NCBI GenBank assembly: GCA_016935665.1
Contig: JAFGQN010000204.1
Location: 1 to 64,000, forward strand
DNA length: 64,000 nucleotides
Direction of reading: 5' to 3'
From: Deltaproteobacteria bacterium
GTDB taxonomy: Bacteria > Myxococcota_A > Polyangia > JAAYKL01
A model generated the notes under the pieces. It saw nothing but the letters and a program-made list of their open reading frames with translations. It did no database searches and had not been told where the DNA came from. The position numbers and the translations under genes were made by a program. Positions within the stretch are counted from its first letter, which is position 1. The number at the start of each line of letters is the position of its first letter. Positions 56,903 to 63,276 of the stretch are shown here, one piece after another.

Positions 56903-57059
56903 CGTCATTGCCCGTCTTTCGTTTTTTGATATGTCAATTGACAATGACCACCTGATTCCTAAACCGGGGGTCGACGCCAATGTTCCATCTTTTGTGGAAC
57001 GAGCTGAAAAGGTTTTCAGTAGGCGGAGTGTTTTCGCTCGAGAATTGCGGAGGCGGTAG
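56903..57059 (+). other. Coding-like remnant after the DUF6880-like gene
   Basis: One plus frame from about 56897 to the TAG at 57057 reads as plausible protein (D-V-I-A-R-L-S-F-F-D, H-L-I-P-K-P-G-V-D-A, P-S-F-V-E-R-A-E-K). P-S-F-V-E-R-A echoes P-S-F-L-E-R-A at the end of the preceding gene. It has no proper start and overlaps the 3' end of transketolase, so it may be the tail of a lost paralogue. Confidence 0.3.
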
Positions 57060-59085
57060 CGGCGATGTTTTCTTTTGTGAATCCGTATTTATGGTGAAGC
57101 ACGTTCATTGGGGCAGACTCGCCAAATGTGTCTACGCCGATGATGGCATCCGGGTTTTTAACCACTCCGGTCCATCCCAGGGTGGCGCCCTCCTCTACTA
57201 CAATGCGAACGGTGGCATTCGTGGTAAGCACGGCAGTTTGATACTCTGCGCTCTGCGCCAGAAAAAGTTCCCACGACGGCACGCTGACAATCCGTACTGT
57301 TTTACCCGACGCTTCCAGGACCTCTGCAGCATCCACGCACAGTGACACTTCGCTGCCGGACGCAAATAAACAAATATCGGGATTATCGACGTTTTCACCA
57401 TATAAAATATAGGCACCATTGGCGACCCCTGATGCAGCGGCAAATTTACGTCTATCGAGGGTGGGCAGCGCCTGTCTGGAAAGCGCCATGGCGACCGGTT
57501 TTCTCTTTGATTGAACAACGATTTTCCACATTTCGAGGATTTCATTGGCATCGGCGGGACGAAACGTGGTCAGGCCGGGAATGGCCCGCAGTGAAACCAT
57601 GTGTTCGACGGGTTGATGGGTGGGGCCATCTTCGCCCACACTGATGGAATCGTGCGTAAAGACATGAACGACAGGTATTTCCATCAGCGCCGCGAGTCGA
57701 ATGGAGGGCCTGGCATAATCGCTGAACACCATAAAACCCGACCCATATGATCGCAACTTACACAGAGCCATTCCGTTCATGATGGCGGCCATGGCGTGTT
57801 CGCGAACGCCAAAATGCAGATTTCGGCCAGCGTAATTATCGGCCGAAAAATCTCCCATATTATCGTCGGTCAAACGCGTCATTGTGGATGGCGCCAAATC
57901 CGCTGAACCGCCCACAACCCACGGGATGGCCTTCGCCAGTTGGTTGAGCACCATACCCGACGCGGTTCGCCCTGCAATACCTTTGGGATCCGCATCAAAC
58001 GGTGACAGATATTTGTCAAAATCAGCAGGCATTCCATTTTTATCCATGATTTCGAGCTGCTGTGCCTGCTCGGGAAACGCAGTGCGGTATTCATTGAACA
58101 TGGCCTCCCAGGCATCCCTAACTGCTTTGCCACGCTGTCCCATCCCACTTTCGAAATGCGTGTACACATCATCGGGAACATAAAACTGTTTATCCTCCGG
58201 CCAGCCATACGCTTTTTTGGTGAGGCGAATCTCCTCGTCTCCAAGAGGCGCGCCATGAGCCCCGTGAGTGTCCTGCTTGTTGGGGGCGCCAAAGGCAATG
58301 TGACTGTTCACGATAATCAATGTGGGACGATCAGTGGTGTTTTTGAAATTTTCAAATGCCGTTTTAAGCGCCGGCAAATCGTTGGCGTCTTCGACTCGGG
58401 TCACATTCCAGCCGTAACTTAAAAATCGCGCCGCCACATCCTCGCTGAACGCCAACCCGGTATCCCCTTCAATGGTGATACGATTATTGTCGTACACCAC
58501 ACACAGATTGGAGAGCTTGAGGTGTCCCGCAATGGACGCTGCTTCGGAGCTGACCCCCTCCATCATGCAGCCATCCCCCGCCAACGCATACACATTGTAA
58601 TCAAACAGCTTAAAATCGGGCCTGTTATATGTTGCGCCAAGCCATTTGCCCGCCAACGCCATTCCCACACTGGTGGCCACGCCCTGCCCTAACGGTCCCG
58701 TGGTGGTTTCCACTCCGGACGTCCATCGATACTCGGGATGCCCCGGACATTTGCTGTGGAGCTGCCGAAAATTTTTAATACTTTCAAGGGACACGGACAC
58801 ATTATCTGAAATTTTTCCATCTTCGGTGACGCTTTTTACCTTCGTCAAATGCAGCATGGAATACAGCAGCATGGATGCATGACCAATGGAGAGCACAAAG
58901 CGATCTCTGTTGGGCCACAGGGGATGAGTGGGGTCATACTGCATCACCTGCTGCCACAGGGAATAGGCCACCGGCGCCATGGCCATTGGTGTCCCCGGAT
59001 GTCCGGAATTCGCCGCCTGTACTGCATCCATTGATAGTGTTCGGATTGTGTTTACACTTTTTTGTTCGATTGATTCAGTCGTCAT
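57016..59085 (-). CDS. tkt: Transketolase
   Basis: A 689-residue thiamine-diphosphate enzyme of the pentose phosphate pathway, transferring two-carbon ketol units between sugars. Seen: the N-terminal N-S-G-H-P-G-T-P-M motif, the ThDP/Mg site G-D-G-C-M-M-E-G-V then N-N-R-I-T-I-E-G, and the pyrimidine-domain glutamate region R-N-L-H-F-G-V-R-E-H-A-M-A. Also H-D-S-I-S-V-G-E-D-G-P-T-H-Q-P-V-E and a C-terminal transketolase_C domain. Full-length, no defects. It starts at an ATG at 59085. A 25-bp palindrome lies 72 bp upstream of the start and recurs before the aldose epimerase gene, suggesting common sugar-dependent control. Confidence 0.96.
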   Translation of the reverse strand: MTTESIEQKSVNTIRTLSMDAVQAANSGHPGTPMAMAPVAYSLWQQVMQYDPTHPLWPNRDRFVLSIGHASMLLYSMLHLTKVKSVTEDGKISDNVSVSLESIKNFRQLHSKCPGHPEYRWTSGVETTTGPLGQGVATSVGMALAGKWLGATYNRPDFKLFDYNVYALAGDGCMMEGVSSEAASIAGHLKLSNLCVVYDNNRITIEGDTGLAFSEDVAARFLSYGWNVTRVEDANDLPALKTAFENFKNTTDRPTLIIVNSHIAFGAPNKQDTHGAHGAPLGDEEIRLTKKAYGWPEDKQFYVPDDVYTHFESGMGQRGKAVRDAWEAMFNEYRTAFPEQAQQLEIMDKNGMPADFDKYLSPFDADPKGIAGRTASGMVLNQLAKAIPWVVGGSADLAPSTMTRLTDDNMGDFSADNYAGRNLHFGVREHAMAAIMNGMALCKLRSYGSGFMVFSDYARPSIRLAALMEIPVVHVFTHDSISVGEDGPTHQPVEHMVSLRAIPGLTTFRPADANEILEMWKIVVQSKRKPVAMALSRQALPTLDRRKFAAASGVANGAYILYGENVDNPDICLFASGSEVSLCVDAAEVLEASGKTVRIVSVPSWELFLAQSAEYQTAVLTTNATVRIVVEEGATLGWTGVVKNPDAIIGVDTFGESAPMNVLHHKYGFTKENIAATASAILERKHSAY

Positions 59086-59501
59086 TTACGCCACCTCATC
59101 TGAAGTTTTAGTTTTTGCAGACCCACCATAAACACAATTTCGAGTTCCGTCACCATCATTTGTAAAGTTTATTTACAAATGAGTTTGAAAAATTGTCTCT
59201 CCCCCTTGCAGATTGAGTGTTCATTGGCCGCAACCAGGCCTTTTCGAAAATAGTTTTCCTTATAAAACGAGGCCTCCATGGGATAAAAATCGGCCTGCAA
59301 ATAACTTTTTAGCGTGAAACCGACTACCCGCCGGGTGGTTGGCAAATTTTCACAGGAAGCACTGCCGTGCCCTGTTCAACAACACTTTTAGGCACCATGT
59401 CCAACAGAGAATCCGTATTGCCGACTCTGATGACGGCCAGGACCGGCTACTATTTTGCTGATATGCGGCGCAACAGGGCTCATACTGCACCTCGCCCGCA
59501 A
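59086..59501. other. Intergenic region between the CotH gene and tkt
   Basis: 415 bp with the tkt leader and the palindrome listed separately. The remainder (59182-59501) shows a GGCC-gcaacca-GGCC inverted repeat near 59228 but no gene, RNA or clear terminator for the CotH gene, whose stop is at 59502 with transcription running this way. Confidence 0.4.
59157..59181. promoter_or_regulatory. 25-bp palindromic operator upstream of tkt
   Basis: CATTTGTAAA (59157-59166), spacer GTTTA, then TTTACAAATG (59172-59181): a perfect 10-bp inverted repeat, 72 bp upstream of tkt. A copy with the same length and nearly the same arms is at 62093-62117 upstream of galM. It is the size and symmetry of a site for a dimeric helix-turn-helix repressor. 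Confidence 0.75.
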
Positions 59502-61511
59502 TCAAAAAAACTCAATATCGTCAATTTGAACACTCCCCGTGTCCACCACATCTTTGGGCAAAATACCATGGCCATTAACCTCGGTACTCGCCGGGCTGAA
59601 AACAATGCCATGTAAACCGGTCAATACCTCCTGAAGTGAGTTTGAGGGGGATTCCCCTGTGGCAATTGCCCAGTCTGGCAGAGCGGCATCTGCAAATCGG
59701 ACTTCCATCTGTTGAACGACGCGGGTCGGCTTCAGGTCCCAGCCAAAAGCGATTGGACTAAAACCCAAATCTGCATTCTCGTTCCCCGCCAGGTAAAGGC
59801 GTACCGGACGAGGCGGGTCCGCGCTGATTTTTAGCCGCATTCCGGTAAATTGCTGAATGTTGTATGGACGCTCTGACACAAGCAATTCGTAAGACAGCCA
59901 GCTGCTCCACGGATACTCGTCACTTGAAAATTCAAATGTCAGGGTTAAATTCCTGTTGCCGGAAATCGAGGCGTCGGTTGATATGGTATCCGACAGGAAA
60001 GTGGAAGAACTGGGATATACCTTTGCCCCATTCAATAACGAACACGTGGTCAGATCTTCCATGTCAGCGACTTTCGACACCGACACTTCCGCAGCCGGCA
60101 CTGCCGCTTCATCCAGACACTCGTTCCGTTTTTGCATCATGGGTATATTTAGCTTTAACATTTTCACTGCATTCTCAAATGAGGTTTGCCCTGGCCCCAG
60201 TGGGTCGGCGCCGGCGGCGTTTCGGATTCTGGCGGCATACTTGTCTATCTTTGCCTGCAGCGCGCCCTGGGTAAATGGTCCGCCGCCGGTTAATAGTTGT
60301 TTCCTTGCGTTTTCGTAGGGCGCCATATCCTGTGTGAGGGTTTGAAAAATGCGATCACAGCCAGACGCAATAATCGTTTTATTTCCATTCCATGCGCTAA
60401 ATCGCGCGTCGCAGTTTTCAGGCACATTACGCCACGTTGGAACGTCACTGAAAAAAGGCATGCGCGAAAAAAAGGTGGTGTCCAGGTCCCAGGGAATAAG
60501 CACCAGTTTTCCATCCGATTTTTCGTATATGTAAAAATTGTGGTTAAATGCAGTCTTCTTTTCATCGCCCTCGTAGTACCATGCCGTCACGCCATCCACA
60601 TTGGCAATCAGGTCATCAACCGCCATGTATCGGCTGAGATAATCGAAGCCCATGGTGTCATCCAGAAGCGTCTTCCAGTCTTCGGGCGCCGCCGCCATGA
60701 ACGAGGTGGAGAATTTCAGCAGTCCCGCCACATTTGCGTCTGCTTCGTTGGTCTTTAGCTTTGATACTGCCCTGTCAACATCCATGACCGTGGATCCATT
60801 TTCCTTAAACGACAGTGGCCACTGTTCCTTATACAGATTGCCATCCGGATCATCTGGCCATCTATCTTCGGTAAATCGGCCATCCACTGGTTCAATCAGA
60901 ATATATAGTCCCTGTGACTTGCCATTTACCCGCAGATTGGCCCAACCAGTACGCGGCGTGACAATGTTCATTTCACGATAAACATCGTATACCAAAGGTT
61001 CCTTTATGTAGCTGGCGTCTCCACCACTTGTATTAAAACTCAGCCGTTTCAATCCCATGAAGCGCCGCTTTTCATCGTATTTGTCAAACTTAAGTTTGAT
61101 GTCGAGTTTTGGGCAAATCAGTTGGTTATTTTCATCAAAACACATCTCCAGGGATCCCACATTTCCCTTGAACCGCATTCCCACCTCTCCAATGGCCCGC
61201 CCCTTAAAGCAGGCATTGGCTGAAACGTATTCCTCGTTACGGGCATTTTGTTTCAACGTCTCCCATTCTCCCGGTGGCAGGTACAGGTCAAAGGTCGGCA
61301 CTCCTGGCGCGTCAAATAATGCCGACGCATCCATCGTGGAAAGAGACGGGTCAATCTCTCCGCAACCGAAAGGAATCTGTTCGTTCTCAGTGCAGTGCGC
61401 CCCCATCATCCAGGCGGACACAATCCATAGAACCATAGTGTGCCTGTAAGATGCGTTTATCCCATATCGGGTCGCGCCTTTTTCGTTGAAATTATATCTG
61501 TGCTTATACAT
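59502..61511 (-). CDS. CotH-kinase-family surface protein with C-terminal beta-sandwich
   Basis: A 669-residue protein. The N-terminal hydrophobic segment (M-V-L-W-I-V-S-A-W-M-M-G-A-H-C) is a signal sequence ending near a Cys, possibly a non-standard lipobox. Residues about 70-430 match the CotH atypical kinase fold: M-R-F-K-G-N-V-G-S, K-L-K-F-D-K-Y-D, L-S-F-N-T-S-G-G-D-A-S-Y-I-K-E, G-L-Y-I-L-I-E-P-V-D, and the metal motif L-I-P-W-D-L-D-T-T-F. CotH proteins phosphorylate secreted or coat proteins. The C-terminal ~180 residues look like a carbohydrate-binding beta-sandwich ending in V-Q-I-D-D-I-E-F-F. The ATG at 61511 has GGGAGGA with 6-nt spacing; the longer frame (61595) has none. There is no neighbour in the same operon. 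Confidence 0.8.
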   Translation of the reverse strand: MYKHRYNFNEKGATRYGINASYRHTMVLWIVSAWMMGAHCTENEQIPFGCGEIDPSLSTMDASALFDAPGVPTFDLYLPPGEWETLKQNARNEEYVSANACFKGRAIGEVGMRFKGNVGSLEMCFDENNQLICPKLDIKLKFDKYDEKRRFMGLKRLSFNTSGGDASYIKEPLVYDVYREMNIVTPRTGWANLRVNGKSQGLYILIEPVDGRFTEDRWPDDPDGNLYKEQWPLSFKENGSTVMDVDRAVSKLKTNEADANVAGLLKFSTSFMAAAPEDWKTLLDDTMGFDYLSRYMAVDDLIANVDGVTAWYYEGDEKKTAFNHNFYIYEKSDGKLVLIPWDLDTTFFSRMPFFSDVPTWRNVPENCDARFSAWNGNKTIIASGCDRIFQTLTQDMAPYENARKQLLTGGGPFTQGALQAKIDKYAARIRNAAGADPLGPGQTSFENAVKMLKLNIPMMQKRNECLDEAAVPAAEVSVSKVADMEDLTTCSLLNGAKVYPSSSTFLSDTISTDASISGNRNLTLTFEFSSDEYPWSSWLSYELLVSERPYNIQQFTGMRLKISADPPRPVRLYLAGNENADLGFSPIAFGWDLKPTRVVQQMEVRFADAALPDWAIATGESPSNSLQEVLTGLHGIVFSPASTEVNGHGILPKDVVDTGSVQIDDIEFF

Positions 61512-61761
61512 CTGAAATCCTCCCTCGGGACAACTGTGACATCTCCGATTCGACCATATTGATAAAGAGACACGCAGGTATGTCTGATTAAGCAATCGCC
61601 GTCCGAAATAACATTTTGACCGATAATTTTATATTTGGGAGGTCGTCTCTTTATGCACTGGAGGACCAAAAAAATTTCAGATTTTCACTGAATATACCCC
61701 CGTGCCCCTTTCCCATAAACAGATGCTGCCAAAATTGAGGCGCATGTTGCGGCCGTGTTGG

Positions 61762-62076
61762 TCAAACCCGCTCAACCGGGCGTATTTCAAATATTGAAAG
61801 TGACCGGGCGGTGACCAGGCCCCGTACCATGAGGGTTTCTATTTCCGACCCAACGGTCGGCAGTTGGTTGGGACCGCTTTGCAACAGCGAGAGCAACACT
61901 GTCACTGCACGAGGATTGGGCAGTTGCTGTGCGAGCATAGCGCGTAGCGACTCGACCCATTCTTCCACTGATGAAACTGAACGGGGAGTTATGGAACGCT
62001 CACAGACCGCGTTCCAAACTCTTCGTGGGTGTGCTGGAGCTGTTGTAAATGAAGTCAACCAGAAAATAACTTGCAT
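61762..62076 (-). CDS. Possible small protein divergent from galM
   Basis: A 104-codon frame with natural-looking helical periodicity (V-E-E-W-V-E-S-L-R-A-M-L-A-Q-Q-L, then A-V-T-V-L-L-S-L-L-Q-S-G). The plus-strand frame over the same bases looks like a shadow. The ATG at 62076 has a GAGGAT 11 nt upstream. The shared 25-bp palindrome begins 17 bp upstream of this start, so it would be under the same control as galM. No family recognised. The rest of the 61512-61761 stretch is empty as far as I can see. Confidence 0.35.
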   Translation of the reverse strand: MQVIFWLTSFTTAPAHPRRVWNAVCERSITPRSVSSVEEWVESLRAMLAQQLPNPRAVTVLLSLLQSGPNQLPTVGSEIETLMVRGLVTARSLSIFEIRPVERV

Positions 62077-62092
62077 GGAAATCCGATATCCT

Positions 62093-62117
62093 CATTTGTA
62101 AAGGTTGTATACAAATG
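62093..62117. promoter_or_regulatory. 25-bp palindromic operator upstream of galM
   Basis: CATTTGTAAA, spacer GGTTG, then TATACAAATG: outer 8-bp arms CATTTGTA/TACAAATG are perfectly complementary, and a smaller TTGTATACAA palindrome lies in the right half. 98 bp upstream of the galM start; the counterpart lies before tkt (59157-59181). Confidence 0.7.
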
Positions 62118-62214: not shown

Positions 62215-63276
62215 ATGACGCACACAAGGACACTTTTTGGCACTATGCCCAACGGGGACGAGATCTTCAAATACACACTCGTAAACACCCAGGGGGCGTC
62301 GTTCAACATTATCAACTACGGTGCAATTGTCCAGTCTCTGATGGTTCCAGACCGTAATGGCCAACTTGCGGATGTGGTGTTGGGTTGCGACACTCTGGAT
62401 GGCTATTTGCACAACAACCCGTATCTGGGCGCCATTGTGGGGCGTTATGGAAATCGGATACACAACGGAAAATTCGAGCTCAACGGACAATCGATTCAAC
62501 TGGCCCAAAATGATGGCGCTCAGCATCTGCATGGCGGACCTGTGGGATTTGACAAAAAAGTCTGGGAACTTGAACCCTTTGAAACCGACCAGGGAACGGG
62601 GGTGCTCGCCAAACTGGAGAGCCCCGACGGTGAGGAAAACTACCCTGGCGCCGTTCAGCTGGAAGTCCGTATCATGCTTACCAACAATAACGAACTTCAA
62701 TTTGACTACATTGGAACGTCAGACCAGACCACCCTGCTAAACCCCACCCATCATTCCTATTTCAACCTCTCGGGAAATCTCGGCAGTTCCATTGAAAATC
62801 ACACCCTTCAAATTAACGCCAGCGCGTACACCCCGGTGGATAGCGCGCTCATCCCGCTGGGGCCCATTGAAGAAGTGGACAATACGCCAATGGATTTTCG
62901 TGCGCCCACTCGGATTGGCGACAATCTGGCCAAGGAGAATGATCAATTGCGCCATGGTGGCGGCATTGACCACAATTTTGTGCTCAATGATTATCAGCCA
63001 TCACAGCGACGCAAGGTGGCGTATCTGGCAGAAGCGACCAGTGGGCGCACAATGGAAGTGGTGACAGATCAGCCCGGGTTACAAATATATACCGGCAACA
63101 ATCTGAACGGCGCCGTCATTGGCAAAGAGAATATCGCATACGGCCATCGCTGCGGAATCTGTCTCGAAGCGCAGCATTATCCGGATTCCCCCAACCGACC
63201 GGAATTTCCTTCCACTGTGCTGTCTCCCAACGAAACCTATCGTCAATTCACCGCATATCGGTTTGGCGCTATCTGA
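62215..63276 (+). CDS. galM: Aldose 1-epimerase (mutarotase)
   Basis: A 353-residue enzyme that interconverts alpha and beta forms of galactose, glucose and related sugars. Family motifs: N-Y-G-A-I-V-Q-S, V-V-L-G-C-D-T-L-D-G-Y, G-A-I-V-G-R-Y-G-N-R-I, H-L-H-G-G-P-V-G-F-D-K-K-V-W, N-P-T-H-H-S-Y-F-N-L-S-G with the general-acid His, D-H-N-F-V-L and C-L-E-A-Q-H-Y-P-D-S-P-N with the catalytic Glu. The ATG at 62215 follows AAGGGAG. The last strand reaches within 21 bp of the convergent hybrid kinase gene. The upstream palindrome ties its control to that of tkt. Confidence 0.95.
   Translation: MTHTRTLFGTMPNGDEIFKYTLVNTQGASFNIINYGAIVQSLMVPDRNGQLADVVLGCDTLDGYLHNNPYLGAIVGRYGNRIHNGKFELNGQSIQLAQNDGAQHLHGGPVGFDKKVWELEPFETDQGTGVLAKLESPDGEENYPGAVQLEVRIMLTNNNELQFDYIGTSDQTTLLNPTHHSYFNLSGNLGSSIENHTLQINASAYTPVDSALIPLGPIEEVDNTPMDFRAPTRIGDNLAKENDQLRHGGGIDHNFVLNDYQPSQRRKVAYLAEATSGRTMEVVTDQPGLQIYTGNNLNGAVIGKENIAYGHRCGICLEAQHYPDSPNRPEFPSTVLSPNETYRQFTAYRFGAI

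Follow-up and report, generated by a model that had tools for sequence, protein, structure and literature searches.

Two 25-bp palindromes upstream of transketolase and aldose 1-epimerase genes as candidate ROK/XylR-type operators in a bacterium of the Polyangia

Described ROK-family xylose operators

ROK-family XylR proteins govern well-characterized regulons in Firmicutes and Thermotogae (PMC9104551, PMC2873477, PMC3750489, PMC12285236, PMC8579813). The operator bound by the ROK-family XylR of Paenibacillus polymyxa is ACTTAGTTTAAGCAATAGACAAAGT, given in degenerate form as ACTTWGTTTAWSSNATAVACAAAGT, and its C before TTNG is called critical (PMC9104551). The XylR of the Clostridium acetobutylicum group, also a ROK protein, was assigned a 25-bp inverted repeat, ACTTattAAAnnnnnTTTaaAAAgt, which was tested by EMSA, and xylR is autoregulated in this group (PMC2873477). 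The ROK XylR of Thermotoga maritima is a repressor acting on xylAB and xylan-degrading enzymes at several loci; tkt and galM were not found as members of its regulon in the available part of the paper (PMC3750489). ROK XylR sites have also been described for Caldicellulosiruptorales (PMC12285236, PMC8579813), and a xylose mutarotase lies within the XylR regulon of G. stearothermophilus (PMC12285236). In the literature searched, we found no xylose regulon joining xylR, an aldose 1-epimerase and a transketolase, and the matches for ROK-family xylose repressors combined with "Myxococc-" concern other matters, judging by their titles and the beginnings of their abstracts.

Two matching palindromes at outward-facing sugar genes

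The window is the whole stretch of 64,000 nucleotides that was analyzed. The gene tkt2 (57016–59085, minus strand) encodes a 689-aa transketolase, identified by Pfam and NCBIfam (TIGR00232, 807 bits), and galM (62215–63276, plus strand) encodes a 353-aa aldose 1-epimerase, or mutarotase, identified in the same way (PF01263). Each gene faces outward from a 25-bp palindrome annotated with no strand. Site 1 (59157–59181; CATTTGTAAAGTTTATTTACAAATG) consists of perfect 10-bp arms around a 5-bp centre and ends 71 bp from the tkt2 start at 59085, whereas site 2 (62093–62117; CATTTGTAAAGGTTGTATACAAATG) has perfect 8-bp outer arms with one mismatched pair inside and ends 97 bp from the galM start at 62215. 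The first-pass annotation had described two matching palindromes at these positions, 70–100 bp upstream of sugar-gene starts, and both points hold in position, sequence and gene identity. A gene with a CotH domain (59502–61595, minus strand) occupies the space between the sites; the relative G002 also has a CotH-domain gene (L206:5257-6765, plus strand), 845 bp from a site with two mismatches to the core motif defined below.

The same annotation judged a chance origin very unlikely, and our counts agree. The exact pattern CATTTGTA-N6..12-TACAAATG occurs in the own genome (8,161,753 bases in 249 contigs) only at sites 1 and 2, against an expectation from base composition of about 1.4e-5 per 64 kb and 0.0018 per 8.16 Mb for the 16 bases, and the two sites still stand alone in the window when up to three mismatches are allowed. 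The window holds four 25-mers with perfect 8-bp outer arms compared to 1.4 in first-order surrogates, and two 25-mers sharing the same perfect 8-bp arm appeared in none of 60 such surrogates. Another 25-bp palindrome with perfect 8-bp arms (TGGAACGCTCACAGACCGCGTTCCA, 61992–62016) lies 76 bp upstream of site 2 and belongs to a class of which about 1.4 are expected per window. Consensus scans found no sigma-70-like promoter beside either site, and a role of the palindromes as promoter or terminator was set aside since these scans were empty.

In layout, the window sites resemble the P. polymyxa operator, which precedes a xylose operon and likewise measures 25 bp with 10-bp arms, a 5-bp centre and TTWGT..ACAAA in the same places; the inner-arm contrast, P. 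polymyxa versus window, is TTTA against AAA, and the ends are AC..GT there and CA..TG here (PMC9104551, available text). The operator of the C. acetobutylicum group, from another phylum, is also a 25-bp inverted repeat with 10-bp arms and an inner AAA-N5-TTT; it differs at its ends and carries at/t where the window arm has GT (PMC2873477, available text). Against the published ROK-XylR consensus operators the window sites match 12–13 of 20 arm positions, a level at which many positions in the window score equally.

The same core upstream of a ROK-family xylR

The inner core of the two palindromes, TTTGTAAA-N5-TTTACAAA, is found in the own genome (G000) without mismatch at the tkt2 site and at C230:37158, and with one mismatch at the galM site and at C210:5466, which falls within an ORF. 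Among the sites with two mismatches is C230:16640, 50 bp upstream of xylR, and a second, weaker copy of the core lies 84 bp further upstream. This xylR (C230:16711-18015) opens an operon of the order xylR(ROK)-xylB-xylA-GH43-GPH, in which GH43 is a xylosidase and GPH a symporter. Its product carries the ROK domain (PF00480, E 2e-58) and an HTH_24 match just under its cut-off (E 3.5e-4), and matches ROK regulators of known structure over its full length, the best being Lmo0178 (5f7p). The gene order is the same in the relative G002 (xylA 86%), and another relative, G010, has xylR-xylB-xylA-GH43; the closest ROK proteins are those of G002 (70%), G001 (66%) and G010 (53%). A ROK regulator with xylose genes and xylan enzymes over several loci is also the arrangement in T. 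maritima, as described in the available text (PMC3750489).

An operator-like palindrome precedes xylR itself in three genomes: the own genome, G002 and G010. In G002, the own-genome xylR site recurs with its first 23 bases identical and its flanks changed, accompanied by a second site, and in G010 a perfect core stands upstream of xylR-xylB-xylA. No core site was found upstream of nine inspected ROK genes outside the own family, nor upstream of the ROK genes on C83 and G001:C257. The first-pass annotation had likened the half-site to operators of GntR/LacI-type regulators such as AraR. AraR, a GntR-family protein of Bacillus subtilis, has a palindromic operator of 16 bp whose half-sites abut. 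The window shares its half-site ATTTGTA / TACAAAT, but at both window sites 9 bp separate the two halves, so the comparison with AraR is not supported. We moved the regulator class from GntR/LacI to ROK-XylR because the same core precedes a ROK-family xylR in three genomes.

Adjoining C230:37158 is a gene (C230:35050-36885, minus strand; L030:16851-18686) whose 611-aa product combines a LacI-type sugar-binding domain with a C-terminal half that matches no Pfam family; its G002 ortholog (55%; L196:1921-3783, minus strand) stands beside an exact site of the degenerate core. This protein was considered as the regulator and rejected, as the sugar-binding domain is present and no HTH matched. Separately, a core with two mismatches (TTTGTAAA-N5-..TACAAA) was seen at G000:C90:8649 (L019) and G001:C55:4206 (L210), about 30 bp upstream of orthologous genes for GAF/sigma-54 activators; it may mark a real regulon member or may have been kept for another reason.

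Distribution of the sites in related genomes

The exact 25-bp form was discarded as a regulon motif, because the own genome has the exact CATTTGTA-N6..12-TACAAATG pattern only at the two window sites and all 38 relatives lack it. At up to three mismatches it gave 45 sites compared to 23 with a reversed control, and three of the four sites at two mismatches, all but that on C237, lie inside ORFs. The further promoter copies that were anticipated genome-wide exist for the core motif and not for the exact form.

A degenerate core, TTWGTWAA-N5-TTWACWAA with at most one mismatch, was compared to its mirror image as control. Across G000, G001 and G002 it gave 25 sites (8, 9 and 8), eight of them exact, and the control 13 (9, 2 and 2), none exact; therefore the excess is clear in the relatives and there is none in the own genome. 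With ORFs called by a purpose-made caller and upstream defined as within 300 bp of an ORF, 18 of the 25 core sites, a set that includes the sites that had defined the motif, lie upstream compared to two of the 13 controls (Fisher p 0.0012), and four compared to eight lie inside ORFs (p 0.0067). Leaving out the own genome, the upstream fractions are 13/17 for the core and 0/4 for the control. The strict core at up to two mismatches gave 10 sites against 14 for its control in G000, 12 against 4 in G001, 12 against 9 in G002 and 27 against 21 in G010.

In G002, these sites stand in front of two GH8 genes, of which one is divergent from xylR, and also of genes for a GDSL esterase and for the ortholog of the LacI-type sugar-binding protein, with a SASA carbohydrate esterase behind a two-mismatch site; in G001 the genes are those for a GH45 enzyme, for a GDSL esterase and for a GH30/59-like protein. 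Many products in the relatives look, by eye, like secreted lipoproteins with serine-aspartate linkers, and others match no Pfam family or carry VWA, beta-propeller or TPR domains. The genus of G000, G001 and G002 is rich in hemicellulases: GH10 matches number 16, 11 and 5, respectively, and GH8 matches 9, 9 and 7. Upstream regions were scanned for 53 of the 60 GH10/GH8 matches listed, seven being dropped as split, fragmentary or without a locus; five reached at least 14/16 (none with the mirror pattern) and two at least 15/16. A regulon covering all xylanases was rejected on this basis, since just 2/53 regions hold a strong site.

The conservation upstream of tkt and galM in close relatives that the first-pass annotation looked to did not appear. 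The tkt2 ortholog of G002 (71%) and the galM homologues of G001 and G002 have no upstream site (best 13/16), and among the 14 family genomes searched, 12 with tkt at E<=1e-100 and three with galM at E<=1e-20, a site at either gene occurs in the own genome only. This weakens a claim of conserved membership and not one of operators in this species.

Candidate regulators and the proposed regulon

The own genome encodes a ROK paralogue of XylR (C83:2941-4332, locus L141; 64% identity) whose recognition helix is almost identical and whose stretch before GGRRA differs, and the window sites could be read by this second protein, diverged toward another sugar or toward the CA..TG form. All four window half-sites share an outer CA unlike the xylR sites, and most sites outside the window have A followed by C or G in its place (A in 23/34 and C or G in 26/34 half-sites of 17 hand-picked sites, at positions that were unselected and with background rates assumed), which would fit such a divergence. 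So would G001, where the sole ROK match at E<=1e-40 is the ortholog of the C83 protein, yet core sites precede GH45, GH30-like and esterase genes. However, those G001 sites do not end in CA..TG, the C83 gene itself has no upstream site, and no sugar gene was recognized on its 5.3-kb contig, so that we consider this reading unlikely.

A regulator unrelated to XylR, of the GntR, LacI or another family, would make the likeness to the xylR sites a coincidence of a common half-site. The restriction of the exact 25-bp form to two places in the window and the differing outer positions lend this some weight, but what three genomes share at xylR is the whole spaced core and not a half-site alone, and the LacI-type protein adjoining C230:37158 has no HTH match; we regard it as improbable. 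The similarity of sites 1 and 2 does extend past the palindrome, over 37 nt at 81% with partly agreeing centres, and the homologues in relatives have neither site, which might indicate that one of the palindromes has no regulatory function and is a duplicate of a promoter fragment or some other repeat, or that both arose by chance. Since both sites precede outward-facing sugar genes, since copying leaves the dyad symmetry and the match to the xylR sites unexplained and since chance is remote, this is the least credible explanation and a very doubtful one.

We therefore favor, at a probability of roughly 0.55, the reading that a ROK-family XylR, most likely the one encoded at C230:16711-18015, uses the window palindromes as its operators. 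The simplest account, which the sequence comparisons support in its main line, would make tkt2 and galM additions to a xylose regulon. When xylose is absent, a XylR dimer would sit on each 25-bp site with one subunit per half-site and keep transcription of tkt2 and galM down, and xylose or a close relative, bound by the sugar-kinase-like domain, would release the repressor. In this state, the part of GalM would be to interconvert the anomers of the sugar ahead of xylose isomerase, and that of the additional transketolase to feed xylulose-5-phosphate into the pentose-phosphate pathway. Because the genome has another transketolase on C233 (94338–96338; 49% identity to tkt2), a second, inducible copy would serve pentose flow. 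What we infer from these observations is that the protein binds, that it represses and does not activate, what the inducer is and which of the C230 and C83 proteins is at work. The siteless tkt and galM genes of G001 and G002, the outer CA and the 12–13/20 fit to the consensus weaken the regulon account. The absent excess of core sites in the own genome, the scarcity of strong sites at GH10/GH8 genes and the empty sigma-70 scans also speak against it.

Of the undescribed sugar regulon proposed at first, a single regulon with related sites in this genome and its relatives thus stands, with binding predicted and conservation at tkt and galM not found. The word "undescribed" applies, within the literature searched, to this lineage; regulons of the ROK-XylR kind are familiar from Firmicutes and Thermotogae, and the present one probably adds a new branch to this type of xylose switch. 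More speculatively, and on balance doubtfully, the locus could reflect lineage-specific rewiring, in which a second transketolase and an epimerase came under a ROK-XylR-type operator absent there in the nearest relatives, perhaps with the CA..TG form read by the C83 paralogue and two neighboring regulons sharing one operator design and differing only in its outer base pairs.

If the favored reading of XylR operators is true, these sites would outline how xylose is handled by the regulators of a little-studied, biomass-degrading lineage and would bring a second transketolase under sugar-specific control. It would also suggest that the 25-bp ROK-XylR operator type of Firmicutes is used in a distant lineage.
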